Positions 11,161-61,365 of a stretch of DNA of 64,000 nt are shown here, one piece after another. Under the pieces are notes generated by a model. The model worked only from the letters and a program-made list of their open reading frames with translations, had not been told where the DNA came from and did not search any database. This DNA is from Pectinatus sottacetonis (GTDB taxonomy: Bacteria > Bacillota > Negativicutes > Selenomonadales > Selenomonadaceae): contig NZ_WIQK01000001.1 in assembly GCF_015732155.1 (NCBI RefSeq), forward strand, positions 1,994,001 through 2,058,000, written 5' to 3'. Position 1 is the stretch's first letter, and each line of letters opens with the position of its first letter. The position numbers and the translations under genes were made by a program.

Positions 11161-11230
11161 TTTGTATTTATAAATAATAGGGGCTGTGACAAAATGAGAA
11201 ATCATTTTGTCCACAGCCTCTTTTTCTAGT

Positions 11231-13106
11231 GTGCCCGGCATGGGCGCAGTCTAACGGGTGAAAGTCCCGAGTGCAGGTTAATAGTGCCAAGCACATAGCT
11301 TAAGGCAAGGGTGTCCATCGCGAGGTGGAATCTAAAGGAAGCCAGCGGCAAATCTCTGGTCTGACGAACAGAAATCACATATAAGGCAGGAGTAACCGGG
11401 TAAGGTTGCTAGACAAACCAAAGCCCAAAACTATTCGAGGCCAATCCTGTAAATGTGGCAGATGGATGGAGAGAAAGACTGCGTTCTTACCCGGGGAGGT
11501 CTCGCGGACATGCAGAAATAAAATTGAAACATGGTTGAAATAAGATTTATCGTGAGAAGTCAGCTGAGGTCATAGTACTGGAAGAAATCCAGGAAGGACC
11601 GAACAATAATAGCGTTCTTGGGCAGAGGGAGGAGAAGTCATGCAAAGAAAGCAGAAAACCAATAAAATGGACTGCCCTTGTAAGGGTATGTTGGAAACAG
11701 ATAGTAGCAAGGGAGCGCAGAGCATGACATCGCTGGGAACTGCAACAAAGAACCGTGTGAACCTGTTAGAAATAATCCTAAGTCCGGCAAATCTCAATGA
11801 AGCCTATCTCAGGGTAAAGCGAAAGAAAGGCGCAGCCGGAGTAGATGGCATGAAAGTTGACGAAATGTACGGATGGTTAAAAGAACATAAGGAAGAATTC
11901 CTTGAATCGCTAAAGAACGGGAAATATAAACCACAGCCGGTACGGCGGGTAGAAATACCTAAGCCAGACGGAGGGAAAAGAAAGCTTGGCATACCAACAG
12001 TACTGGACAGAGTAATACAACAAGCAATAATGCAGGTACTACAGCCAATTTTCGAACAGACATTCTCAGACAACAGTTATGGATTCAGACCGGGAAAGAG
12101 TGCGCACCTGGCCATAAAACAGGCGGAAGCCTATTATAAAGAAGGATACACTAAAATAGTGGACCTTGACCTTGCACAGTACTTTGACACGGTAAATCAT
12201 GACATGCTCATAAACATGCTCCGAGAAGAAATACAGGATGAGCGCGCAATAGCACTCATCCGAAAATATTTAAAGAGCGGAGTAATGGAAGGCGGAATAA
12301 TAAGCCCGACAATGGCAGGAACGCCGCAGGGAGGAAACCTGTCACCATTACTGTCTAACATCTATCTTACAAAATTTGACAAACTGCTAGAAAGCAGGGG
12401 ACATAAATTTGTAAGATACGCCGATGACTGTAACATCTATGTAAAAACGCCAAGAGCGGCAAAACGTGTAATGGAGAGCTGTATAAACTATCTTGAAGGA
12501 AAACTGAAACTAAAAGTCAACCGGAAGAAAAGTAAAATAGGCAGCCCATTGCGGGAAAAGTTTTTAGGATTTTCTCTGCACAAAGTAGTAGGGAAAATAG
12601 GAATCAGGCCACACCAAAATGTAATCCGGAAATTCAAGCAAAAGGTGAAAGAAATAACCGGCCGCAGTCGCGGCCGGTCAATAGAAAGCATCTTGCTTGA
12701 ATTAAAAAATTATACAATAGGCTGGCTTAATTACTTTTCCATAAGCGATATGCGCAGCAGAATACAAGATTTAAACCAGTGGATTAGGCGTAGATTGAGA
12801 ATGTATCTGTGGAAACAGTGGAAGAAAATTTCCGCGAGATTTAAAAATCTGAATCGATTAGGATTGTACAAAGGCAAGGCGTGGGAGTATGCCAATACAA
12901 GACTGGGGTACTGGCGCATCGCAAACAGTCCAATATTAGGCAAAACACTAACAGATAAATATCTTGAGTCGCTTGGTTATATGAATATAGCCAAGAAATA
13001 TGAGATGTTTCATTCACGTTAAATTATTGAACCGCCGTATACTGAACAGTAAGTACGGTGGTGTGAGAGGTCGGTCATTCAATTAATGAGTGACCTCCTA
13101 CTCGAT
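11231..13106 (+). ncRNA. Group II intron, copy 1
   Basis: The RNA begins GTGCCCGGCATGGGC and has a 5' region rich in conserved group II sequence. The maturase lies in domain IV. A domain V hairpin follows (about 13029-13066, CCGCCGTATACTG closing with AGTACGGTGG-like pairing), then a domain VI stem ending in CTCCTACTCGAT. It is inserted directly after the T-run of the hairpin at the IS left end, the kind of site used by terminator-targeting (class C-like) introns. The class assignment is inferred. The 3' boundary is uncertain by a base or two. Confidence 0.85.
11640..13022 (+). CDS. ltrA: Group II intron reverse transcriptase/maturase, copy 1
   Basis: A 460-residue intron-encoded protein. 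Reverse transcriptase blocks include AGVDGMKVDEM, IPKPDGGKRKLGIPTVLDRV, YGFRPGKSAH, DLAQYFDTVNHDML, TPQGGNLSPLLSNIYL and the catalytic RYADDCN. The C-terminal third is the maturase X/thumb domain. No HNH endonuclease motif follows, so insertion would need a nick or single-stranded DNA. GGAGGAG precedes the ATG. It differs from copy 2 at one residue (Arg here, Cys there, codon at 12465-12467). Confidence 0.95.
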   Translation: MQRKQKTNKMDCPCKGMLETDSSKGAQSMTSLGTATKNRVNLLEIILSPANLNEAYLRVKRKKGAAGVDGMKVDEMYGWLKEHKEEFLESLKNGKYKPQPVRRVEIPKPDGGKRKLGIPTVLDRVIQQAIMQVLQPIFEQTFSDNSYGFRPGKSAHLAIKQAEAYYKEGYTKIVDLDLAQYFDTVNHDMLINMLREEIQDERAIALIRKYLKSGVMEGGIISPTMAGTPQGGNLSPLLSNIYLTKFDKLLESRGHKFVRYADDCNIYVKTPRAAKRVMESCINYLEGKLKLKVNRKKSKIGSPLREKFLGFSLHKVVGKIGIRPHQNVIRKFKQKVKEITGRSRGRSIESILLELKNYTIGWLNYFSISDMRSRIQDLNQWIRRRLRMYLWKQWKKISARFKNLNRLGLYKGKAWEYANTRLGYWRIANSPILGKTLTDKYLESLGYMNIAKKYEMFHSR

Positions 13107-13187
13107 TACAATTTGAGGCAACAAGCAGGTAATTACTGAAAAAAGGACATAATCCCCCTTTCCCCGTAAAAACTGCTTTTCTACAGT

Positions 13188-13448
13188 TTATGCGGCTTTC
13201 TTCAAGCGTAGTTTTTTATTTAAGATTGTTTTCAACATACTGGTCGGGTTGTATCTGATGCCTCCGGTAACGTGTTCCGGAACATTTTTCAGGTACTTCT
13301 CCAAGTCGATTCCCTCCATAAATCGGTCAAAAACCAGCACGGGATCACAGATATTCAGATAATCTGAAATAAATAGTGGCAAAACTGCCTGTTTTATTTT
13401 AGAATGATTAGGGGTAATGTTTTTCATTGGTACGTAAAATTTTACCAC
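13188..13448 (-). pseudogene. IS1182-type transposase, internally deleted
   Basis: The first 76 residues and the last ten (NKKLRLKKAA) match the complete transposase at 24039-25634, but 1335 bp (exactly 445 codons) between them are missing near 13220. The remnant stays in frame as an 86-residue product, yet all catalytic residues are gone. Three of its residues differ from copy 2 (Ile/Val, Asp/Tyr, Gly/Arg), so the copies have been separate for some time. Confidence 0.9.
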
Positions 13449-13526: not shown

Positions 13527-13934
13527 TTATTCTCCAAAACTTAAAAAACCATAGTTTGTTGATGTAGTTTCTTTGTTTTTAGTGTCATAATCTGATGGAT
13601 TATAAGGATCATACGCATAAATAGATCCAGCTTTTACTTTTTCAGCATCTAATCGTGAAATTGTTGCAGCAGCATTTTGCGCTGTAACATTATCAGTAAG
13701 TTTTGTTCCAATTAGCCGGGCACGTTCACTTAATGCTATTGCATTAGTGATATTAATAGCATTATTTTTTTGTTTTTCGCTTAATAAGCCATCATCTTTT
13801 AATTCAACTAAATTAGATATTGTTTCTTGTCTGCTGTTTTCATGTTGTACAACTTGCTGATACATTTCATCCGATTGAGTGTTGGTTGTGTTAAGGGCAG
13901 CACTTAATTTTTTTTCTAAAGTGCTATCGTTCAT
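13527..13934 (-). CDS. Hypothetical protein
   Basis: A 135-residue hydrophilic protein that I do not recognise. It is rich in Asn, Thr and Ala, with a predicted helical middle (ETISNLVELKDDGLLSEKQK) and a Pro/Tyr/Asp-rich tail (YDPYNPSDYD). There is no signal peptide, Cys or membrane segment. The ribosome site before the ATG is weak. It lies about 85 bases downstream of the dehalogenase-like gene on the same strand and may be the last gene of that operon. Its stop falls six bases from IS copy 1. Confidence 0.5.
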   Translation of the reverse strand: MNDSTLEKKLSAALNTTNTQSDEMYQQVVQHENSRQETISNLVELKDDGLLSEKQKNNAINITNAIALSERARLIGTKLTDNVTAQNAAATISRLDAEKVKAGSIYAYDPYNPSDYDTKNKETTSTNYGFLSFGE

Positions 13935-14019: not shown

Positions 14020-14937
14020 TTAATTTTTTGTCTTATATTTTTCCAAGAAAGTTGAAAGAGTTTCTAAAACTATTTCCGGTTGTTCTTCAGGAACAAGATG
14101 ACCACATTCCTTAATACCAAATCCGGCTACATTTTCAGCCCGTTTTTTCCAATTAGCCAAAACATTCCACAAATTACCGACTACACCATTCGCTCCCCAT
14201 AATACTAATAATGGTGTTTTTATTATTTTAGTTCTGTCAGCTATATCATATTTCATATCAATGGTAGCTGAGGCCCGATAATCTTCACTTACACCATGAA
14301 TAGTCATTGGATCAGAGAAGCATTTAATATACTCCTGTAGTACATCTTCAGAAAAATTGTTCTTGGTTTTAGGATTAATTTTCAACTGTAAATTAAATCT
14401 GATAAAAAAATCAGCGTTACCATTTAATAATTTTTCAGGGAGGCCATTATTCTGAATGTAAAAAAACCAATGCCAATACTTAGTAGCAAACTCCTGGTTC
14501 GTATCATGATACATATCATATGTAGGTAAAATATCCATTAATGTACAGCTGATCGCTTTTTCAGGGTGATCCATAATTAAACGATGACAAACACGAGCTC
14601 CTCTATCGTGACCTACTAAATGAAATTTTGTAAATCCAAGCTTTGCCATAACTTTAATTACATCATCAGCCATTACTCTTTTTGAATAATTAGAGTGGTC
14701 AGGAAGACCTTGTGGTTTTGTACTATATCCATAGCCGCGAAGATCTGTTATTATCACACTGTATTTGGAAGTAAGCTTTGGGGCTATAAAACGCCAGGTA
14801 AGATAATTTTCTGGATGCCCGTGTAAAAATACAACTGCTTCTTTACCATGTCCGCCTATTAAAGTATTAATTTTTATGTTTTCACCTACATCTATTAACT
14901 TGTTAACAAATTTGGGAAAATATTTTTCTATTAACAT
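14020..14937 (-). CDS. Alpha/beta hydrolase, fluoroacetate/haloacetate dehalogenase-like
   Basis: A 305-residue alpha/beta hydrolase with HGHPENYLTWR (oxyanion region) and GHDRGARVCHR at 109-119. The spacing matches fluoroacetate dehalogenase closely: nucleophile Asp111, carboxylate-binding Arg112 and Arg115, Asp135, halide-pocket His156, Trp157 and Tyr220 (in EDYRASATID), and base His280 (ECGH). Such enzymes hydrolyse haloacetates to glycolate. Substrate cannot be proven from sequence, and epoxide hydrolases are related. AGGAGG precedes the ATG. It is third in an operon after the LeuC/LeuD-like genes, probably under the divergent LysR regulator. Confidence 0.82.
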   Translation of the reverse strand: MLIEKYFPKFVNKLIDVGENIKINTLIGGHGKEAVVFLHGHPENYLTWRFIAPKLTSKYSVIITDLRGYGYSTKPQGLPDHSNYSKRVMADDVIKVMAKLGFTKFHLVGHDRGARVCHRLIMDHPEKAISCTLMDILPTYDMYHDTNQEFATKYWHWFFYIQNNGLPEKLLNGNADFFIRFNLQLKINPKTKNNFSEDVLQEYIKCFSDPMTIHGVSEDYRASATIDMKYDIADRTKIIKTPLLVLWGANGVVGNLWNVLANWKKRAENVAGFGIKECGHLVPEEQPEIVLETLSTFLEKYKTKN

Positions 14938-14968
14938 GTATTCCTCCTGTATGATTTATTACTTTTAT

Positions 14969-15496
14969 TTAATCAATTTCCATTGAGCAAATCGTTTCTT
15001 CCTGCATTTTCCGAATCATGGGAATAATACCGCCATTTTGTAATATATTCATCATATAATCGTTCATTGGTTCTGAATGTGCAGATTTCCCTGTTGTAAT
15101 ATTTTTAATTGTACCTGTTAGAAAATTGACACTTAATTTATCTTTTTGATGGACCATATTATGTATACCTTTACATGTAATAGCTGGAATACCTAAATTT
15201 ATTGCATTACGATAAAATATACGGGCAAAGGATTCTGCCAATATTGCCCCTACACCAATCCCTTTCAAAGTCATTACAGCATGTTCACGTGAAGAACCAC
15301 ATCCAAAATTTGTTCCACCGACAATAATATCGCCAACTGTAAATTTTTGTACAAGATCAGGTTGACTGCTGCCACTCATGGCATATTTTTTTATATCGTC
15401 CATTTCTGTAAATTCAACATATTTACCCGGATAAATTTGATCAGTATCAATATTATTACCAAACAGATACACGATACCTTTTGCTATTTTTTTCAT
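14969..15496 (-). CDS. leuD: 3-isopropylmalate dehydratase small subunit-like (aconitase swivel domain)
   Basis: The 175-residue product has the swivel-domain signature NIDTDQIYPGKY and GGTNFGCGSSREHA, typical of short archaeal/clostridial-type LeuD, homoaconitase or 2,3-dimethylmalate dehydratase small subunits. It pairs with the large subunit directly upstream to isomerise or hydrate a hydroxy-diacid. I start at ATG 15496 rather than the upstream in-frame start at 15520, because AAGGAG at 15507-15512 serves it and overlaps the large-subunit stop. No other leucine-biosynthesis gene is nearby, so a catabolic substrate is possible. Confidence 0.82.
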   Translation of the reverse strand: MKKIAKGIVYLFGNNIDTDQIYPGKYVEFTEMDDIKKYAMSGSSQPDLVQKFTVGDIIVGGTNFGCGSSREHAVMTLKGIGVGAILAESFARIFYRNAINLGIPAITCKGIHNMVHQKDKLSVNFLTGTIKNITTGKSAHSEPMNDYMMNILQNGGIIPMIRKMQEETICSMEID

Positions 15497-15510
15497 AGTC
15501 AATTTTCTCC

Positions 15511-16761
15511 TTAAAAACATTCTGCCGGATCAGTTATTTTCCCATACAGTGCAGCAGTTGCTACTGATGCTGGTGAGCCCAGATAAATACGTCCGTTTAC
15601 ATTGCCCATCCGTCCCGGAAAATTGCGATTAGTAGATGATATGCATGTTTCGCCATCTGCAATAAGGCCTTGATGAATGCCCAGGCAGGCTGCACAACCT
15701 GGTGCCGTCAGTGTCGCTCCAGCAGCTACAAGTTCTTGGATATAGCCATTTTTTAAACATTCCTGCAGTACAAAGCGTGTTGCCGGTACCAGAATCATAC
15801 GTGTACCAGTGTGAATTTTTTTGCCGCTTAATATTTTAGCCGCAATTGCAAAATCTTCCGTTCGTCCGCCTGTGCAGGAGCCAAGATAAGCTTGATCTAT
15901 GTGGATACCAGCAAATTCATTTAAATTGGCTACATTATCCACACTAAATGGTGCTGCAAGTTGTGGTCTGATTTCCGATACATCATATGTGATATCTGCT
16001 GCATATTTATAGTCCCTGTCAGTATTATAAATTTTATAATTATGATTTACATGTGCAGCAAGGTATTTCATCGTGATTTCATCAGGCTGTATATAACTTG
16101 TTTTTGCTCCCATTTCTGTTGTCATGTTGCAAAGCACCATGCGTTCAGATATATTGAACTCCTTAAGAACCGGGCCAGCAAATTCAACAGCTTTATATAC
16201 GGCGTAATCAGCTTTTAAATTGCCAATGATATGCAAAATTACATCTTTGGCATAAACTCCTTTTGCCAATTTGCCTGCGAGATTTATGCGAATTACTTCC
16301 GGTACTTTAAACCAAAGCCTGCCGGTTACAAGAACTACTGCCAAATCCGTTGCTCCGACACCTGTACCAAAAGCGCCAAAAGCTCCATGCGTATTTGTAT
16401 GTGAATCAGTGATCGTAATAACCTCGCCAGGATATGATAATCCATAATCTGCCATAAGCTGATGACATACACCCTGATTAATATCCATAAGTTTCTTTAT
16501 GCCTTGTGATTTGGCAAATTCTCTAAATTTTTTATGATTATCTGCCTGTTTTTCTGTTGCACAGGGTGCATAGTGGTCAAAGAAAATTACAATCTTTTCC
16601 GGACTAAAAACTTTTTTCCCGCCCATCTCCCAAAAAGATTTTACGGTCTGATAATAAAGATCATTGATTCCGGCAATATCAATATTACAATTGACAATTT
16701 CTCCAGCATGTACAGAGGTTTTACCAGCGTTCACTGCCAATATTTTTTCGATAGCATGCAT
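15511..16761 (-). CDS. leuC: 3-isopropylmalate dehydratase large subunit-like (aconitase family)
   Basis: A 416-residue protein of the shorter LeuC/HacA/DmdA type. ITDSHTNTHGAFGAFGTGVG is the conserved substrate/cluster region, and the 4Fe-4S ligands lie in LGSCTGGR and PGCAACLG. It would catalyse a hydro-lyase/isomerase step with the small subunit 14 bases downstream. AAAGGAAG precedes the ATG. The gene is transcribed away from a LysR regulator, with dyads in the 136-base gap. Leucine synthesis or catabolism of a dimethylmalate-like acid are both possible; the absence of leuA/leuB here favours neither strongly. Confidence 0.85.
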   Translation of the reverse strand: MHAIEKILAVNAGKTSVHAGEIVNCNIDIAGINDLYYQTVKSFWEMGGKKVFSPEKIVIFFDHYAPCATEKQADNHKKFREFAKSQGIKKLMDINQGVCHQLMADYGLSYPGEVITITDSHTNTHGAFGAFGTGVGATDLAVVLVTGRLWFKVPEVIRINLAGKLAKGVYAKDVILHIIGNLKADYAVYKAVEFAGPVLKEFNISERMVLCNMTTEMGAKTSYIQPDEITMKYLAAHVNHNYKIYNTDRDYKYAADITYDVSEIRPQLAAPFSVDNVANLNEFAGIHIDQAYLGSCTGGRTEDFAIAAKILSGKKIHTGTRMILVPATRFVLQECLKNGYIQELVAAGATLTAPGCAACLGIHQGLIADGETCISSTNRNFPGRMGNVNGRIYLGSPASVATAALYGKITDPAECF

Positions 16762-16830
16762 ATTTCAAACTTCCTTTCATATTTCTGAAATTTTCTAACT
16801 TTTTCATCTTGATTTTACAGTAGGTACGTT

Positions 16831-16877
16831 ATAAAATCAATTTTATATATTATATAAGTATATAAAATTATTTTATA
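16831..16877. promoter_or_regulatory. Two AT-rich dyads, candidate LysR binding sites
   Basis: ATAAAATcaATTTTAT at 16831-16846 and TATAAAATtATTTTATA at 16861-16877 are perfect dyads in the divergent leuC/lysR spacer. Both contain a T-N11-A-like core expected of LysR-type sites. A LysR regulator acting at both promoters would bind here. Confidence 0.55.
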
Positions 16878-16897
16878 TATAAAAGGACGGTAGTATT

Positions 16898-17875
16898 ATG
16901 CAGCAAGAAATGAATTATATTTATGAAGTTTATAAAATGGGTAGTTTTTCTAAAGCAGCAGCTAATTTGTATTTGTCACAACCGGCTTTGAGTATTTCTG
17001 TAAAAAAAGTAGAAAAGGAAATTGGCATGCCCATTTTTGATCGAAGTCAGCAACCTTTAAAATTAACTGAAGCTGGTAAAATATATATTCAGAAAATAAT
17101 TGACATAAAGTTGCTGGAAAATGATTTAGAAAATGAACTGCAGGATATTGCGAAACTGAGTGTTGGTAAATTACGTCTTGGTGGAACACAATATTTTAAT
17201 TCGTATGTCATGCCAATTGTTATAAAAAAATATATGTACTATTATCCTAAAATTGAATTATCCTTATTTGAAGATAATTCTGGTCTGCTTGATACTAAAC
17301 TAGCTGACGGTTCAGTCGATATAATGTTTCATTGTGGTTCATTTGATAAAAAGTCTTTTATGGGGACCGATATATTCGAAGATCGTCTGCTTTTGGCTGT
17401 GCCTGAGGAATTATTAACAGACAAAAAAACAGCCAATAAAGGATTAACGGCAAATCAGGTAAAAAAGGATATACTTTTTACTAAAGACTGCCCATATGTT
17501 CCTTTATCGGCTTTTGCTGATATTCCTTTTTTGATTTTAACTGAAAGCAATAATTTGCATGAACGGTCATTGGCAATTTGCACAGGTGCGGGTTTTATAC
17601 CTAAAGTACGATTTTATGTTGAACAGTTGGAAACTGCTTATCATCTTGCCTATAATGGTCTGGGCGCAACTTTTATAAGTGATCTTATGATAAAAAAAAC
17701 CCCCCGGGATAATATGCTTTATTATAAAATTATTGAACCTGAAGCTATACGCCATTTTCAAGCAGTTATAAGGAGAAAAGGTTATACTTCTTTTGCAATG
17801 CAGACTTTTATTAAATTAACTAAGTCTATATGGGTTAATAGATTATCATGCTTACATGTACAAAAAGAGCATTAG
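16898..17875 (+). CDS. LysR family transcriptional regulator
   Basis: A 325-residue regulator. The N-terminal winged helix-turn-helix (GSFSKAAANLYLSQPALSIS, about 13-32) is followed by a substrate-binding-like effector domain (KLRLGGTQYFNSYVMP onward). AAAAGGACGG precedes the ATG. It is divergent from the leuC-leuD-hydrolase operon and is the obvious candidate to control it, using a carboxylate co-inducer as is common in the family. The effector is unknown. Confidence 0.88.
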   Translation: MQQEMNYIYEVYKMGSFSKAAANLYLSQPALSISVKKVEKEIGMPIFDRSQQPLKLTEAGKIYIQKIIDIKLLENDLENELQDIAKLSVGKLRLGGTQYFNSYVMPIVIKKYMYYYPKIELSLFEDNSGLLDTKLADGSVDIMFHCGSFDKKSFMGTDIFEDRLLLAVPEELLTDKKTANKGLTANQVKKDILFTKDCPYVPLSAFADIPFLILTESNNLHERSLAICTGAGFIPKVRFYVEQLETAYHLAYNGLGATFISDLMIKKTPRDNMLYYKIIEPEAIRHFQAVIRRKGYTSFAMQTFIKLTKSIWVNRLSCLHVQKEH

Positions 17876-21630: not shown

Positions 21631-22030
21631 AAACAACACCTAAATCTGTTGCTGTGGAAGTTGCATCATCCAAAAGTCAGTGGAAGATAATTGTAAGAAA
21701 ACTTTAGTGAAATAAAAAAATGAAAATGAACTTCTATAGAAAAGAAAATAAAACTTCAAAATAATATATGAAAAAAATGGGGTTGTGAAATAACATACCT
21801 TATTTTGTGGTAAAATTTTATATAACTAACGAAAAATTTAACCATCGGTTATTTTAAAACAAAATAGGTTGTTTTACCAGCGAGGATATATTTGTCAGTT
21901 TATTTTGCACTAAATTTTGATATAGAACCATAGTAACTTTAATCGTGACCAGTGGTCCTTGTCGCCTCCGCATGGAGAGTGTGAATTTAAGCATCGTCAT
22001 CCAGATTATTTTTGTCTAATACGAAAAATT
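21631..22030. other. Gene-free stretch with an old IS end
   Basis: No coding frame is supported. 21779-21820 (GGGGTTGTGAAATAA, then ATTTTGTGGTAAAATTTT) resembles the transposase-side end of the two IS1182-type copies and is probably a solo relic end. 21961-21992 resembles a single degenerate CRISPR-like repeat (see findings). Confidence 0.4.
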
Positions 22031-22081
22031 GGGGCTGTGACAAAATGAGAAATCATTTTGTCCACAGCCTCTTTTTCTAGT

Positions 22082-23957
22082 GTGCCCGGCATGGGCGCAG
22101 TCTAACGGGTGAAAGTCCCGAGTGCAGGTTAATAGTGCCAAGCACATAGCTTAAGGCAAGGGTGTCCATCGCGAGGTGGAATCTAAAGGAAGCCAGCGGC
22201 AAATCTCTGGTCTGACGAACAGAAATCACATATAAGGCAGGAGTAACCGGGTAAGGTTGCTAGACAAACCAAAGCCCAAAACTATTCGAGGCCAATCCTG
22301 TAAATGTGGCAGATGGATGGAGAGAAAGACTGCGTTCTTACCCGGGGAGGTCTCGCGGACATGCAGAAATAAAATTGAAACATGGTTGAAATAAGATTTA
22401 TCGTGAGAAGTCAGCTGAGGTCATAGTACTGGAAGAAATCCAGGAAGGACCGAACAATAATAGCGTTCTTGGGCAGAGGGAGGAGAAGTCATGCAAAGAA
22501 AGCAGAAAACCAATAAAATGGACTGCCCTTGTAAGGGTATGTTGGAAACAGATAGTAGCAAGGGAGCGCAGAGCATGACATCGCTGGGAACTGCAACAAA
22601 GAACCGTGTGAACCTGTTAGAAATAATCCTAAGTCCGGCAAATCTCAATGAAGCCTATCTCAGGGTAAAGCGAAAGAAAGGCGCAGCCGGAGTAGATGGC
22701 ATGAAAGTTGACGAAATGTACGGATGGTTAAAAGAACATAAGGAAGAATTCCTTGAATCGCTAAAGAACGGGAAATATAAACCACAGCCGGTACGGCGGG
22801 TAGAAATACCTAAGCCAGACGGAGGGAAAAGAAAGCTTGGCATACCAACAGTACTGGACAGAGTAATACAACAAGCAATAATGCAGGTACTACAGCCAAT
22901 TTTCGAACAGACATTCTCAGACAACAGTTATGGATTCAGACCGGGAAAGAGTGCGCACCTGGCCATAAAACAGGCGGAAGCCTATTATAAAGAAGGATAC
23001 ACTAAAATAGTGGACCTTGACCTTGCACAGTACTTTGACACGGTAAATCATGACATGCTCATAAACATGCTCCGAGAAGAAATACAGGATGAGCGCGCAA
23101 TAGCACTCATCCGAAAATATTTAAAGAGCGGAGTAATGGAAGGCGGAATAATAAGCCCGACAATGGCAGGAACGCCGCAGGGAGGAAACCTGTCACCATT
23201 ACTGTCTAACATCTATCTTACAAAATTTGACAAACTGCTAGAAAGCAGGGGACATAAATTTGTAAGATACGCCGATGACTGTAACATCTATGTAAAAACG
23301 CCAAGAGCGGCAAAATGTGTAATGGAGAGCTGTATAAACTATCTTGAAGGAAAACTGAAACTAAAAGTCAACCGGAAGAAAAGTAAAATAGGCAGCCCAT
23401 TGCGGGAAAAGTTTTTAGGATTTTCTCTGCACAAAGTAGTAGGGAAAATAGGAATCAGGCCACACCAAAATGTAATCCGGAAATTCAAGCAAAAGGTGAA
23501 AGAAATAACCGGCCGCAGTCGCGGCCGGTCAATAGAAAGCATCTTGCTTGAATTAAAAAATTATACAATAGGCTGGCTTAATTACTTTTCCATAAGCGAT
23601 ATGCGCAGCAGAATACAAGATTTAAACCAGTGGATTAGGCGTAGATTGAGAATGTATCTGTGGAAACAGTGGAAGAAAATTTCCGCGAGATTTAAAAATC
23701 TGAATCGATTAGGATTGTACAAAGGCAAGGCGTGGGAGTATGCCAATACAAGACTGGGGTACTGGCGCATCGCAAACAGTCCAATATTAGGCAAAACACT
23801 AACAGATAAATATCTTGAGTCGCTTGGTTATATGAATATAGCCAAGAAATATGAGATGTTTCATTCACGTTAAATTATTGAACCGCCGTATACTGAACAG
23901 TAAGTACGGTGGTGTGAGAGGTCGGTCATTCAATTAATGAGTGACCTCCTACTCGAT
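22082..23957 (+). ncRNA. Group II intron, copy 2
   Basis: Apparently identical to the intron at 11231-13106, except for one visible base (T at 23316, C in copy 1). The same start (GTGCCCGG), domain V hairpin and CTCGAT end are present. It occupies the same position in the IS as in copy 1. Confidence 0.85.
22491..23873 (+). CDS. ltrA: Group II intron reverse transcriptase/maturase, copy 2
   Basis: A 460-residue reverse transcriptase with catalytic RYADD and a maturase domain, lacking a DNA endonuclease domain. It is identical to copy 1 apart from Cys in place of Arg shortly after the YADD region (RAAKCVMES). That change is a CpG-type C-to-T transition in a basic position of the palm and might weaken RNA contact, but activity cannot be judged by eye. 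Confidence 0.95.
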   Translation: MQRKQKTNKMDCPCKGMLETDSSKGAQSMTSLGTATKNRVNLLEIILSPANLNEAYLRVKRKKGAAGVDGMKVDEMYGWLKEHKEEFLESLKNGKYKPQPVRRVEIPKPDGGKRKLGIPTVLDRVIQQAIMQVLQPIFEQTFSDNSYGFRPGKSAHLAIKQAEAYYKEGYTKIVDLDLAQYFDTVNHDMLINMLREEIQDERAIALIRKYLKSGVMEGGIISPTMAGTPQGGNLSPLLSNIYLTKFDKLLESRGHKFVRYADDCNIYVKTPRAAKCVMESCINYLEGKLKLKVNRKKSKIGSPLREKFLGFSLHKVVGKIGIRPHQNVIRKFKQKVKEITGRSRGRSIESILLELKNYTIGWLNYFSISDMRSRIQDLNQWIRRRLRMYLWKQWKKISARFKNLNRLGLYKGKAWEYANTRLGYWRIANSPILGKTLTDKYLESLGYMNIAKKYEMFHSR

Positions 23958-24038
23958 TACAATTTGAGGCAACAAGCAGGTAATTACTGAAAAAAGGGCA
24001 TAATCCCCCTTTCCCCATAAAAACTGCTTTTCTACAGT

Positions 24039-25634
24039 TTATGCGGCTTTCTTCAAGCGTAGTTTTTTATTGTGGTATTTATAAAGATTGTGCCCAATGG
24101 AAACCAGGAAAATCTCTAAACGTACCTGTTCCAGGCCTTTTCGAATAATTCTTTTGTACCAGCGGTTATTTTTCATAATCCCAAAAGTACCTTCAGATTG
24201 AATCGAGCGATTCATACGAAGAAGCGCTCCTTGAATGCTTTCTAAGTTGTTCACAACTTCTTGATGCATAGAGGTTAGTTCCTGGTTAAGACGAATCATC
24301 CTGTTTTTGTCCGTCTTTTTACATTCGGCACCATAAGGACAATCTGTACAATTTTCGCACTGGTAAACTTCTTCCTGACGTCCGTATCGATTTCCTTTTA
24401 CATTTTGTCTGTATTGCAGATGAAATGCCTGTCCTGCGGGACAACGCAGAGTACCTTCTTCATCAATCTTGAAATTTACTGGGCGAAACTGATTCTCTCG
24501 ATACTTCGCATTTGTGGTTTCTTTCTTGTACATCGTGAATTTCATGTATTTTTCCATCCCGTGCTGCTCACAGTAAATATAATTGTTGTATGAACCATAG
24601 CCTGCGTCAGCTACGGGATACTTTGGATAAAATCCGTAGGTATTATGAAATTTCTCCAGTAAGGGAACAAAACAATCCATGTCTGCACGGTATTGATTTA
24701 CATCAGCTACAGCTATGTATTCATCTGCAATACCAAATTGAACATTGTAGGCTGGCAGGAGCTGGTCGTTGCCCATATAATCTGTCTTGATCCGCATGAA
24801 TGTCGCACAGTGATCTGTTTTGGAATAACTGTTCCGGTCTGGACCACAAATAGTTATTTTTTCAACATATTCTTTGAGTTTGGCTGTATATTCCTGAAGC
24901 CGTTCGTAATAGCGCTGCCGGGGTGTTTTTCGATGGCCTTTTCCATGGACAAATTTTGTTTCATCTATTTCATAGATTTTGGCATACCGATCTGTTACTT
25001 CATTCAGGTATTCAGGAACATATTCGGAATTCGTATCAATTTTGATATTAAATCCGGCAAGATCATCGTTGATTTTATCAAGTAACCCGGTGATTTTTTC
25101 AAAAAGCCTGTATCTGGACTTTTCAGTTGCTTTCTTCCATACCCAGCTGTATTTATTGGCATTTGCCTCAAATTTCGAACCATCGATATACAGATGGTTC
25201 AAATCCACATGATCTTCGGCAAAGATTTTCTTATTGATATCGCTGAACAATTCCTCAATCGATGGATTGAGCATATTTTCGATGAAATATCCGAAAGTTC
25301 GGTAAGAAGGTGTCTCATGATCCATAAGGTACATAAAGCGAAGATTGACTTTACAGCAATCTTCCAGTTCGCGCAGAGAGATATATCCATTTGTCATAAA
25401 TCCAAATAAGATTGTTTTCAACATACTGGTCGGGTTGTATCTGATGCGTCCGGTAACGTGTTCCGGAACATTTTTCAGGTACTTCTCCAAGTCGATTCCC
25501 TCCATAAATCGGTCAAAAACCAGCACGGGATCACAGATATTCAGATAATATGAAATAAATAGTGGCAAAACTGCCTGTTTTACTTTAGAATGATTAGGGG
25601 TAATGTTTTTCATTGGTACGTAAAATTTTACCAC
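24039..25634 (-). CDS. IS1182 family transposase
   Basis: A full-length 531-residue DDE transposase. The N-terminal DUF772-type region (residues about 15-110) precedes the DDE core, which begins at LYIDGSKFEANANKYSWVWK. AYNVQFGIADEYI and YPVADAGYGSYNN cover the second acidic residue. A Cys-rich insertion (CENCTDCPYGAECKKTDKNR) follows, and the C-terminal SEGTFGIMKNNRWYKRI carries the final Glu. No stops or gaps are present, so it could mobilise itself and, in trans, the deleted copy 1. Confidence 0.93.
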   Translation of the reverse strand: MVKFYVPMKNITPNHSKVKQAVLPLFISYYLNICDPVLVFDRFMEGIDLEKYLKNVPEHVTGRIRYNPTSMLKTILFGFMTNGYISLRELEDCCKVNLRFMYLMDHETPSYRTFGYFIENMLNPSIEELFSDINKKIFAEDHVDLNHLYIDGSKFEANANKYSWVWKKATEKSRYRLFEKITGLLDKINDDLAGFNIKIDTNSEYVPEYLNEVTDRYAKIYEIDETKFVHGKGHRKTPRQRYYERLQEYTAKLKEYVEKITICGPDRNSYSKTDHCATFMRIKTDYMGNDQLLPAYNVQFGIADEYIAVADVNQYRADMDCFVPLLEKFHNTYGFYPKYPVADAGYGSYNNYIYCEQHGMEKYMKFTMYKKETTNAKYRENQFRPVNFKIDEEGTLRCPAGQAFHLQYRQNVKGNRYGRQEEVYQCENCTDCPYGAECKKTDKNRMIRLNQELTSMHQEVVNNLESIQGALLRMNRSIQSEGTFGIMKNNRWYKRIIRKGLEQVRLEIFLVSIGHNLYKYHNKKLRLKKAA

Positions 25635-60203: not shown

Positions 60204-61365
60204 TTGTTTTTATCGCAGAACAGACAATTGGCAAATAATGCAAGAAATTTACGGTGTAATATGACAAAGGAAGAGTGTCATCTATGGTTTGATTTTTTAC
60301 GGAATTATCCAGTAAAATTTCTTCGCCAAAAAATTATTATGCACTATATTGTAGATTTTTATTGTGAAAAAGCACATTTAGTAATAGAAATTGATTAAAT
60401 GGGAGCCGCACACTCGTGACTTCAGTCTGAGTTAGGCAACCAAACTAGTCAGTATGTATAGAAATATGCATATAGAGATTGGCAAAGACCAATCCAATAC
60501 TGCCTGAAATGCTGGAAACTCCTAAAGACAGCATAGCCACAACGCTAAGATGAAACAAGCTCAAACGTGACGGCGACGAAAGTAAAAAAAATATGCTGTA
60601 TGGTGCAAGGTTAAACCCTAAACACTAAGAAAATGGACAATCAGCAGGAAAGCTCCGAACAGGAGAATCCCCAACGACTATTCCTCTTGAGGGAAGTACA
60701 GCCAAGCGGCTGGAAGTGGGCAGACCTTAACGGATAATGCCGAAGGACAAGATATAGTCTGTGCTTTATGGAAACATAAAGGAGTTCATAAGAGAACCGC
60801 ATGGGAAGCAGCGAGCCCGTGTGAACGACACCTCCCCCATACGACTAAAAAAGAACTTACGACTCTTATATATGTTACTGCAAAGAACTTGCTTTTCTAA
60901 AGCCTGCATGTTAAGTTTAAAATAATCAGGCAATAATCTTGTAAAGATAAAAAGAAAAGTGAGCAATCCCTAAAGAAAATGGGAATGTCCTAACTGTAAA
61001 GCCCAGCATGACAGAGATATAAATGCCGCCATAAACATTCGCAATGAAGGACTAAGAATATTAAACATAACAGCGTAATAACATATATAAGAACCGTAGG
61101 AACTACGGGGATAGCCTGTGGAGATAATGTAAGACGTGCTTTTGGCGCAACTATCTATGAAGCAGGAACCCCGCGACTTTAGTCGTGGGAGGTTCAGGGG
61201 AGTCAACATTATGAAGATAGTGCCATACAATATGATAATAAAAGGACAAAATGTATTGAATCTCTGGGAATAAAGGTTATTCGTTTTACCAATAATGACA
61301 TTTGGAGAAATTTTACTGGTGTAAAGAAATGTATTCAGCAGTCTGTACTATCGCGATTATGCTAA
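60204..61365 (+). CDS. DUF559 endonuclease-fold protein, split by an IStron
   Basis: Exon 1 is 60204-60395 (TTG start, AAAGGAG upstream; ends LVIEID). Exon 2 is 61198-61365 ([19 protein letters not shown] to [11 protein letters not shown]). Joined, they give a 119-residue DUF559 protein with the family sequence DFYC-x-K-x-x-L-VIEIDGSQH and later [16 protein letters not shown]559 is a PD-(D/E)xK-like/Vsr-like nuclease-fold family of unknown cellular role. Read without splicing, the frame stops two bases into the insertion, so expression depends on removal of the IStron RNA. Confidence 0.85.
60396..60840 (+). ncRNA. Group I intron catalytic core of the IStron
   Basis: Core elements are visible: GGAAACTCCTAAAG in the P/Q region, AACGACTA (R, GACTA at 60676-60680) and GACAAGATATAGTC (S, TAGTC at 60755-60759). 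R and S pair to form P7. The 5' exon ends in T, as required for the U-G pair at the splice site. The right boundary of the core is approximate. Splicing activity itself is inferred. Confidence 0.8.
60396..61197 (+). mobile_element. IStron: group I intron fused to a deleted IS605-type element
   Basis: The element follows the pentamer TTGAT (60391-60395), the known target of the clostridial IStron CdISt1, and ends in G at 61197, as group I introns do. The 5' part is a group I ribozyme. The 3' part keeps only the end of TnpB ([20 protein letters not shown], then [11 protein letters not shown] and stop near 61079) and the right-end hairpin CCCCGCGACTTTAGTCGTGG. tnpA and most of tnpB are missing, so movement would need a helper. 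The host frame is restored exactly if 60396-61197 is removed. Confidence 0.9.

Follow-up and report, generated by a model that had tools for sequence, protein, structure and literature searches.

In a 64,000-nucleotide stretch of the 2.69 Mb genome of Pectinatus sottacetonis (contig NZ_WIQK01000001.1, positions 1,994,001 to 2,058,000; hereafter the window), a hydrolase of the fluoroacetate dehalogenase family is encoded beside both subunits of an aconitase-family hydro-lyase, and this conserved triad is the new point of our analysis. The genes lie on the minus strand in the order LeuC, LeuD, hydrolase: a LeuC-type large subunit of the isopropylmalate isomerase (IPMI)/homoaconitase family (15511-16761, 416 amino acids), a LeuD/DmdB-type small subunit (14969-15493, 174 amino acids counted from the ATG behind AAGGAG; the longest open reading frame (ORF) begins upstream of this ATG, at 15520) and an alpha/beta-hydrolase with an Asp nucleophile (14020-14937, 305 amino acids), which falls into an anaerobe clade of its family marked by Lys186. 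The three genes are probably co-transcribed, judging from spacers of 17 and 31 bases. A LysR-family regulator identified by profile match (16898-17875, plus strand) diverges from the triad, the intergenic region between the two start sides spanning 16762-16897. This gene set is as the initial annotation had described it. We propose that the triad may be a feeder module for C4 hydroxy-dicarboxylate, a reading to which we give a probability of roughly 0.45. The pairing of the hydrolase with LeuC/LeuD was not seen in print among open-licence full texts, which is weak evidence of novelty.

Linkage of the hydrolase to LeuC and LeuD

A search with six peptide patterns, KYWHWFFY among them, retrieved 28 further hydrolase loci, which together with the window protein form one clade with support of 100/100 and no characterized member; several branches of the tree are long and their joins unsure. 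By record title the loci belong to Negativicutes, Clostridia, Epulopiscium, Sulfurospirillum and metagenome-assembled genomes (MAGs), the MAG labels including Burkholderiaceae, Methylobacteriaceae and Acholeplasmataceae. The record titled Acholeplasmataceae (L020, JAAYIB010000124.1) has the coordinates of a genome from the window's class (G210) and is probably mislabeled, and L013, labeled 'Proteobacteria', lies in a genome drawn from the class of Sulfurospirillum (G382). A same-genus match is found in Pectinatus cerevisiiphilus DSM 20467 (NZ_SMAA01000001.1, 158059-158961; G044:C1), and the LysR of the P. cerevisiiphilus locus L008 is 70% identical to that of the window. An anaerobic setting is common within this hydrolase clade, and the earlier impression that such an enzyme is unexpected in an anaerobe is not borne out by its spread over these 28 loci.

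The same-strand triad is present in 21 of the 28 loci, 8 with the order LeuC-LeuD-hydrolase and 13 with hydrolase-LeuC-LeuD, and a chance neighborhood was rejected on the basis of these two orders and this frequency. Among the loci without the full triad, L009 has LeuC and LeuD within the same cluster, seen whole as L090, and the genomes of L012, L013 and L033 carry the same LeuC at another site (65-67% identical). The MAGs of L023 and L024 are without this LeuC, and the best match in the genome of L031 is 42% or less.

Co-occurrence was assessed across 380 genomes from the Negativicutes, the class to which the window belongs, with E<=1e-60 for the hydrolase and E<=1e-125 for the LeuC subfamily. 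LeuC is present in 16 of the 17 hydrolase genomes, which include the window genome and G310, compared with 46 of 380 overall (hypergeometric 2e-15), four of the 46 having only a 48-49% LeuC (G256, G261, G289 and G297). Counted by genus, LeuC occurs in 8/8 hydrolase genera versus 29/102 (2e-5); both statistics are affected by the non-independence of related genomes. For the Sulfurospirillum class LeuC was the only query, and it was found in 10 of 298 genomes. In a LeuC tree built without five bacterial-type LeuC (E. coli, L039, L041, L043 and L046) and the short L166, hydrolase adjacency requires 8 changes, at least 6 of them on well supported branches. The genes have been repeatedly assembled or separated and yet kept together, which suggests a shared pathway of the hydrolase and LeuC/LeuD.

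Active-site residues of the hydrolase and the hydro-lyase

In a search of PDB sequences the hydrolase matched Alr0039/NOS0089 (3qyj) with an E value of 1.3e-90, and the top of the list consisted of known fluoroacetate dehalogenase entries and 4nvr, titled 'putative acyltransferase'. Sequence identity is 47.0% to NOS0089, 40.3% to DAR3835 (8sdc), 38.1% to RPA1163, 40.1% to FA1 (1y37), 42.1% to 9c9f (Delftia D4B), 44.0% to 4nvr and 40.8% to a protein of plasmid pUO1 that we take to be DehH1. The residues of the pUO1 protein match the ones that PMC12955510 names for H1. The predicted model of the hydrolase has a mean predicted local distance difference test (pLDDT) score of 85.3, with values below 50 at residues 152-154 and 156-166, a low-confidence part of the cap that includes His156 and Trp157; its top Foldseek match is again 3qyj (E 2.1e-33, TM 0.87/0.91). 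The alpha/beta-hydrolase fold and the fluoroacetate dehalogenases (EC 3.8.1.3) as nearest structures place the protein in that family. The Asp/His/Asp triad, two Arg and His/Trp/Tyr halide pocket that had been claimed for it are all found, with D110, R111, R114, D134, H155, W156, Y219 and H280 of RPA1163 (represented in the alignment by the Y219F variant 6qks) corresponding to D111, R112, R115, D135, H156, W157, Y220 and H280. All eight are retained in 29/29 sequences, where the conservation of His/Trp is partly selected for because KYWHWFFY was among the retrieval patterns, and in 19/19 copies retrieved without patterns (L056-L070, L171 and L174-L176), several of them from species already represented among the 29. 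These eight residues do not discriminate haloacetate from larger substrates. In Cif-type hydrolases a cap His/Tyr pair of similar kind also opens epoxides. A Ser-type C-C hydrolase or esterase was ruled out by the Asp nucleophile.

The wall Trp of the fluoroacetate dehalogenases (Trp180 in H1, Trp185 in RPA1163, and Trp also in FA1, DehH1, NOS0089 and DAR3835) is replaced by Lys186, which is present in all 29 sequences and in 14/15 and 4/4 further copies; 9c9f has Arg and 4nvr has Gln at this site. The alignment has no gap here against RPA1163 and a two-residue adjoining gap against NOS0089, with the HMMER placement slightly shifted, so the equivalence is secure in the case of RPA1163 and probable in the other cases. 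Lys181 of RPA1163 (Cys in FA1, DehH1, NOS0089 and DAR3835) corresponds to Asn182, Phe40 (Phe or Tyr in the five characterized enzymes, His in 9c9f and 4nvr) to His41, and Leu159 to Tyr160. Smaller residues at the Trp185 site let bulkier alpha-fluoroacids in, according to PMC12955510, and PDB titles describe RPA1163 Lys181/Trp185 variants crystallized with 2-fluoro-3-phenylpropanoic acid; the two sites therefore probably face the alpha-substituent. With Lys186 in this wall, the hydrolase may prefer a dicarboxylate.

LeuC scores above the cut-off of IPMI_arch (501 versus 410 bits) and LeuD above that of LEUD_arch/DmdB (172.7 versus 108.95 bits), and the cluster cysteines of LeuC (GSCT...CxxC) align with those of the MJ large subunit, as in aconitase-type subfamily members. 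The equivalogs of leucine synthesis (LEU2, 445 versus 610.65; leud, 159 versus 245.85 bits) and of homoaconitase (HacA, 433 versus 550; HacB, 165 versus 230 bits) were not reached. A leucine enzyme was rejected on these scores and on the presence of a second LeuC-type protein elsewhere in the genome (C1:1005586-1006797). The subunits are of the aconitase family and not of the class I fumarase type seen in TtdAB, and any tartrate activity of LeuC/LeuD would be of separate origin from TtdAB. The specificity loop of LeuD, YVEFT, has Glu where homoaconitase (MJ1271) has Arg. In 62 subfamily rows this site holds Glu in 46, Asp in 11 and Gln in 3 (60/62), with Ala in L032 and L035; MJ1277 has Val, the other LeuD of the genome Asn and E. 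coli LeuD Gln. Glu, Asp or Gln here would fit a hydroxyl on the substrate. The branch L167-L170, from four genomes of the class, has Tyr at the site; its LeuC/LeuD are 48% identical and are followed by an ORF of ~360 amino acids and a second LeuC-like ORF.

Candidate pathways and substrates

Neighboring genes were surveyed at 45 LeuC loci, 40 of them chosen so as to omit most of the known hydrolase-adjacent copies and five added from another set, and were called by tblastn with one reference protein each at E<=1e-12 and <=6 kb from LeuC; the set includes redundant Sulfurospirillum strains, regions at contig ends and the four rows L167-L170. The neighbors comprised a PrpR-type sigma-54 activator (23 loci), DASS (20), LarA-type (12), a chemoreceptor with PrpR_N (10), TtdA/fumarase-type (10), LysR (8), GntR (8), the hydrolase (5), OadA-like (4), HAD type II (2), FumC-like (1) and CitMHS (1) proteins. 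In Sulfurospirillum (L092 and L093) the order is DASS-TtdA-TtdB-(GntR)-LeuC-LeuD, and both TtdA and TtdB exceed the L(+)-tartrate dehydratase equivalog cut-offs. The Anaerospora cluster L090 holds the hydrolase, LysR, a sigma-54 activator, DASS, LeuC, LeuD, a chemoreceptor and an OadA-like protein (690 bits versus 402 for the PRK09282 domain model), and Anaerospora L089 holds OadA-like, DASS, FumC-like, HAD, LeuC and LeuD genes. L031, L032 and L035, which represent one cluster (Pfam typing on L032), have a CitMHS-type transporter ahead of the hydrolase, and in L024 the hydrolase is followed by a transporter from the same Pfam families. The divergent LysR that had been named as the regulator does stand beside the triad; it may primarily serve LeuC/LeuD, because in the hydrolase-free loci L140-L142 a LysR 44-50% identical to it stands before LeuC. 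Its top NCBIfam match, CidR, scores 152 bits, far under the cut-off of 415.

Since two unrelated dehalogenase-type hydrolases with an Asp nucleophile, one alpha/beta and one HAD, both adjoin the same hydro-lyase and catabolic neighbors, by which we mean anion importers, LarA-type, tartrate dehydratase and OadA-like proteins, the hydrolase is suggested to deliver a 2-hydroxy-dicarboxylate. In the proposed C4 module LysR would control an operon of hydrolase and LeuC/LeuD, and the hydrolase would open or dehalogenate a C4 dicarboxylate. Following the SN2-type chemistry of the family, Arg112 and Arg115 would bind the carboxylate whose alpha-carbon Asp111 attacks, His156, Trp157 and Tyr220 would hold the leaving atom, and His280 and Asp135 would activate the water that releases the hydroxy acid. 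The Fe-S hydro-lyase formed by LeuC/LeuD would then, as its family does, dehydrate or hydrate this product. The version that we favor, counted within the probability given above and put forward tentatively, is an anaerobic epoxysuccinate pathway in which a hydrolase of the fluoroacetate dehalogenase fold would convert 2,3-epoxysuccinate to tartrate and an aconitase-family D-/meso-tartrate dehydratase would dehydrate D- or meso-tartrate, the resulting oxaloacetate being decarboxylated as is usual in fermenting anaerobes; HAD proteins would substitute for the hydrolase in some genomes, and haloacetates may be side substrates. This route would account for more of the neighbors than any other, and halosuccinate to D-malate would be the next C4 option. 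No gene is known for trans-epoxysuccinate hydrolase (EC 3.3.2.4), an orphan enzyme that converts trans-epoxysuccinate to meso-tartrate, and a literature search on this enzyme returned nothing. A precedent is found in the cis-epoxysuccinate hydrolases, which PMC10869282 and PMC6429283 describe as related to L-2-haloacid dehalogenases.

Several observations weigh against the C4 module and its epoxysuccinate version. The substrates of the hydrolase and of LeuC/LeuD are putative. A basic wall residue does not exclude haloacetates, and the wall Trp is not taken as a strict hallmark of fluoroacetate dehalogenases, because Arg occupies this site in 9c9f, whose PDB entry bears that name; 9c9f also shares the His at the His41 site and may be DeHa4, an enzyme whose kinetics are mentioned in PMC12184663; Gln in the LeuD loop is not special, because E. 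coli LeuD has it too. The DASS, OadA-like and TtdAB neighbors are mostly found at hydrolase-free copies of LeuC/LeuD, and the window triad is without a transporter of its own. The OadA-like protein of L090 misses the two cut-offs for the oxaloacetate decarboxylase alpha subunit (696 versus 718; 664 versus 757), the TtdA-like genes of L150 and L151 are fumarases, and the LarA-type and FumC-like genes fit malate as much as tartrate. The HAD partner matches L-2-haloacid dehalogenases better (1e-28) than it matches cis-epoxysuccinate hydrolase (7e-17); it also appears to lack the catalytic His of the cis-epoxysuccinate hydrolase CESH[L], a reading that goes by dehalogenase numbering and is not used as proof. 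As to linkage, G375 is the sole hydrolase genome of the 17 without LeuC, the MAGs G383 and G384 and Clostridium magnum (G385) are without LeuC at this identity, and the hydrolase of G310 is a 41% relative with a different pocket. Among 14 annotated plasmid regions, a number that excludes the unannotated L037, leuC/leuD are near a hydrolase relative in 5 (L038, L039, L041, L043 and L046) and missing in 9; the 5, two of them Klebsiella copies, have another LeuC/LeuD type and another pocket (Trp156, Gln186).

A true haloacetate or fluoroacetate dehalogenase, which would convert haloacetate to glycolate for detoxification or carbon while LeuC/LeuD works in another pathway under the same regulator, is possible but doubtful. 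The eight conserved residues and the basic wall residue tolerated in 9c9f suit it, as do NOS0089 (Alr0039) and DAR3835, which defluorinate fluoroacetate and difluoroacetate according to PMC11022551. With a complete active site and characterized relatives nearby, the window hydrolase is likely to act on haloacetates in vitro, at least as a side activity, and to this extent the initial annotation as a fluoroacetate dehalogenase stands. Its extension to detoxification in the gut is unsupported. The genus is that of Pectinatus cerevisiiphilus, a brewery organism. The fluoroacetate-resistance cluster of Caballeronia S22 includes crcB, fluoroacetyl-CoA thioesterase and aconitate methyltransferase genes (PMC11812338), and annotated genes of plasmid pUO1 are similar to the neighbors in that cluster, whereas typing of ten proteins around the hydrolase in the window revealed none of the three. 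Neither CrcB nor, by Rfam, a fluoride riboswitch was found in the 64-kb window, and the latter was likewise not found in the 12 of the 28 related loci searched; a fluoride-linked island in the window was rejected on these grounds. The sole CrcB of the genome lies at C1:1050443, ~0.96 Mb from the hydrolase, and CrcB was found in 3/7 other hydrolase genomes searched, in neither case with a search for CLC-type fluoride exporters; the latter count is no proof for or against fluoride release. As to defluorination being unexpected in anaerobes, HAD-type enzymes from human gut bacteria defluorinate fluoroacetate in vitro, although a Gordonibacter culture had no detectable activity, as reported in PMC12184663. 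A dehalogenase would also leave the recurring triad and the co-occurrence with LeuC unexplained.

Conversion of 2-halosuccinate or another 2-substituted succinate to D-malate with inversion, with LeuC/LeuD as maleate/D-malate hydro-lyase and the LarA-type protein as malate racemase, is improbable. It draws on the LarA-type genes near 12/45 LeuC loci, four of which were tested and are close to the malate-racemase and LarAH10 models, yet under cut-off, on the HAD proteins beside LeuC in L089 and L166, which score above the cut-off for type II haloacid dehalogenases (163.9 and 151.2 versus 125.4), and on the FumC-like protein of L089, itself under the fumC_II cut-off (633 versus 665). Against this, the L(+)-tartrate dehydratase of Sulfurospirillum and the OadA-like proteins in 4/45 loci suit tartrate better, and Glu or Asp in the LeuD loop would point to a hydrogen-bonding substituent and not hydrogen. 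Halosuccinates are not known as common natural substrates. A two-layer defense, in which fluoroacetate would be broken down by the hydrolase while LeuC/LeuD would act as a fluorocitrate-insensitive aconitase or remove fluoro-aconitate products, is very hard to sustain: the aconitate methyltransferase of the Caballeronia cluster and the single other aconitase-family protein of the genome, which is LeuC-sized, would suit it, but the LeuD loop has Glu/Asp/Gln instead of the homoaconitase Arg, 30 of the 46 LeuC-subfamily genomes have no hydrolase at E<=1e-60, and the window lacks the fluoride genes sought.

Genes of this family are readily named haloacetate or fluoroacetate dehalogenases. If the clade does serve C4-dicarboxylate catabolism, counting these genes in surveys of defluorination or rumen detoxification overestimates the capacity for it, and the ordinary substrate of the clade becomes testable. 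If the proteins are true dehalogenases instead, Phascolarctobacterium, Succiniclasticum, Sulfurospirillum and Pectinatus supply a ready choice of candidates that work independently of oxygen.

Flanking elements and comparison with known systems

The triad is flanked by two repeat copies (11172-13220 and 22024-24071) of ~2,049 bases that are 99.76% identical, each of which holds a group II intron with its reverse transcriptase/maturase ORF according to profiles and Rfam. Two small ORFs, 13188-13448(-) and 13527-13934(-), sit between intron and hydrolase and have no match in Pfam, NCBIfam or PADLOC; the first, whose end overlaps the repeat, may be a transposase fragment. Terminator-like sites showed no excess over shuffled sequence (2 versus 2.2). 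Rfam also places a group I intron at 60448-60781(+) (69 bits; gathering score, 50).

In the hydrolase tree, five characterized fluoroacetate dehalogenases group with support of only 27/16. A second clade (99/98) contains four LeuC/LeuD-linked proteobacterial proteins, 4nvr from Salmonella and two proteins not seen near LeuC/LeuD, and has Trp156, His182 and Gln186 in all seven members. 4nvr thus shares a clade with the hydrolases of Klebsiella-type plasmid clusters, and may be encoded beside leuC2/leuD2 in Salmonella. On the Klebsiella plasmid of L043 (1663-7853) the order MFS-leuC-leuD-FAH-hydrolase-LysR lies between insertion sequence elements, and L038 has the same order with the hydrolase gene unannotated and its match in two pieces. 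Of other plasmid proteins annotated as alpha/beta hydrolases, that of L045 (5968-6897) has Tyr/Phe/Phe in place of the His/Trp/Tyr pocket and that of L048 (5989-6879) has Thr at the acid Asp column. A plasmid search with the window-type LeuC gave 11 records, all below 44%, and a search of the Klebsiella cluster against E. coli gave 37 records, of which the best 20 match ~40 terminal bases of the query.

The leuC-leuD-hydrolase clusters found in Pantoea, Moraxella, Methylobacterium and on Klebsiella plasmids, the last of which include MFS and FAH genes, resemble the window in having a hydrolase of the same family near LeuC/LeuD and LysR, and differ in their bacterial-type LeuC/LeuD (~475+205 amino acids) and in the Trp156, Gln186 and His182 of their hydrolases. 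With NOS0089/Alr0039, DAR3835, RPA1163, FA1, DehH1 and 9c9f the window hydrolase has in common the fold, Asp-His-Asp, two Arg and His/Trp/Tyr at 38-47% identity, whereas it is set apart from the characterized fluoroacetate dehalogenases by its separate clade, by Lys186, Asn182, His41 and Tyr160, and by its linkage to LeuC/LeuD. The latter proteins form the same two-subunit aconitase-type hydro-lyase as isopropylmalate/citramalate isomerase (4nqy/4kp1 large and 3vba small subunits; LeuCD_arch/DmdAB), from which they differ in the Glu/Asp/Gln type of LeuD loop and in subfamily neighborhoods that look catabolic. The proposed ring opening by an Asp nucleophile in a dehalogenase-related enzyme would be shared with the cis-epoxysuccinate hydrolase CESH[L] (PMC10869282 and PMC6429283), which has a HAD-type fold, whereas the window hydrolase has the alpha/beta-hydrolase fold.

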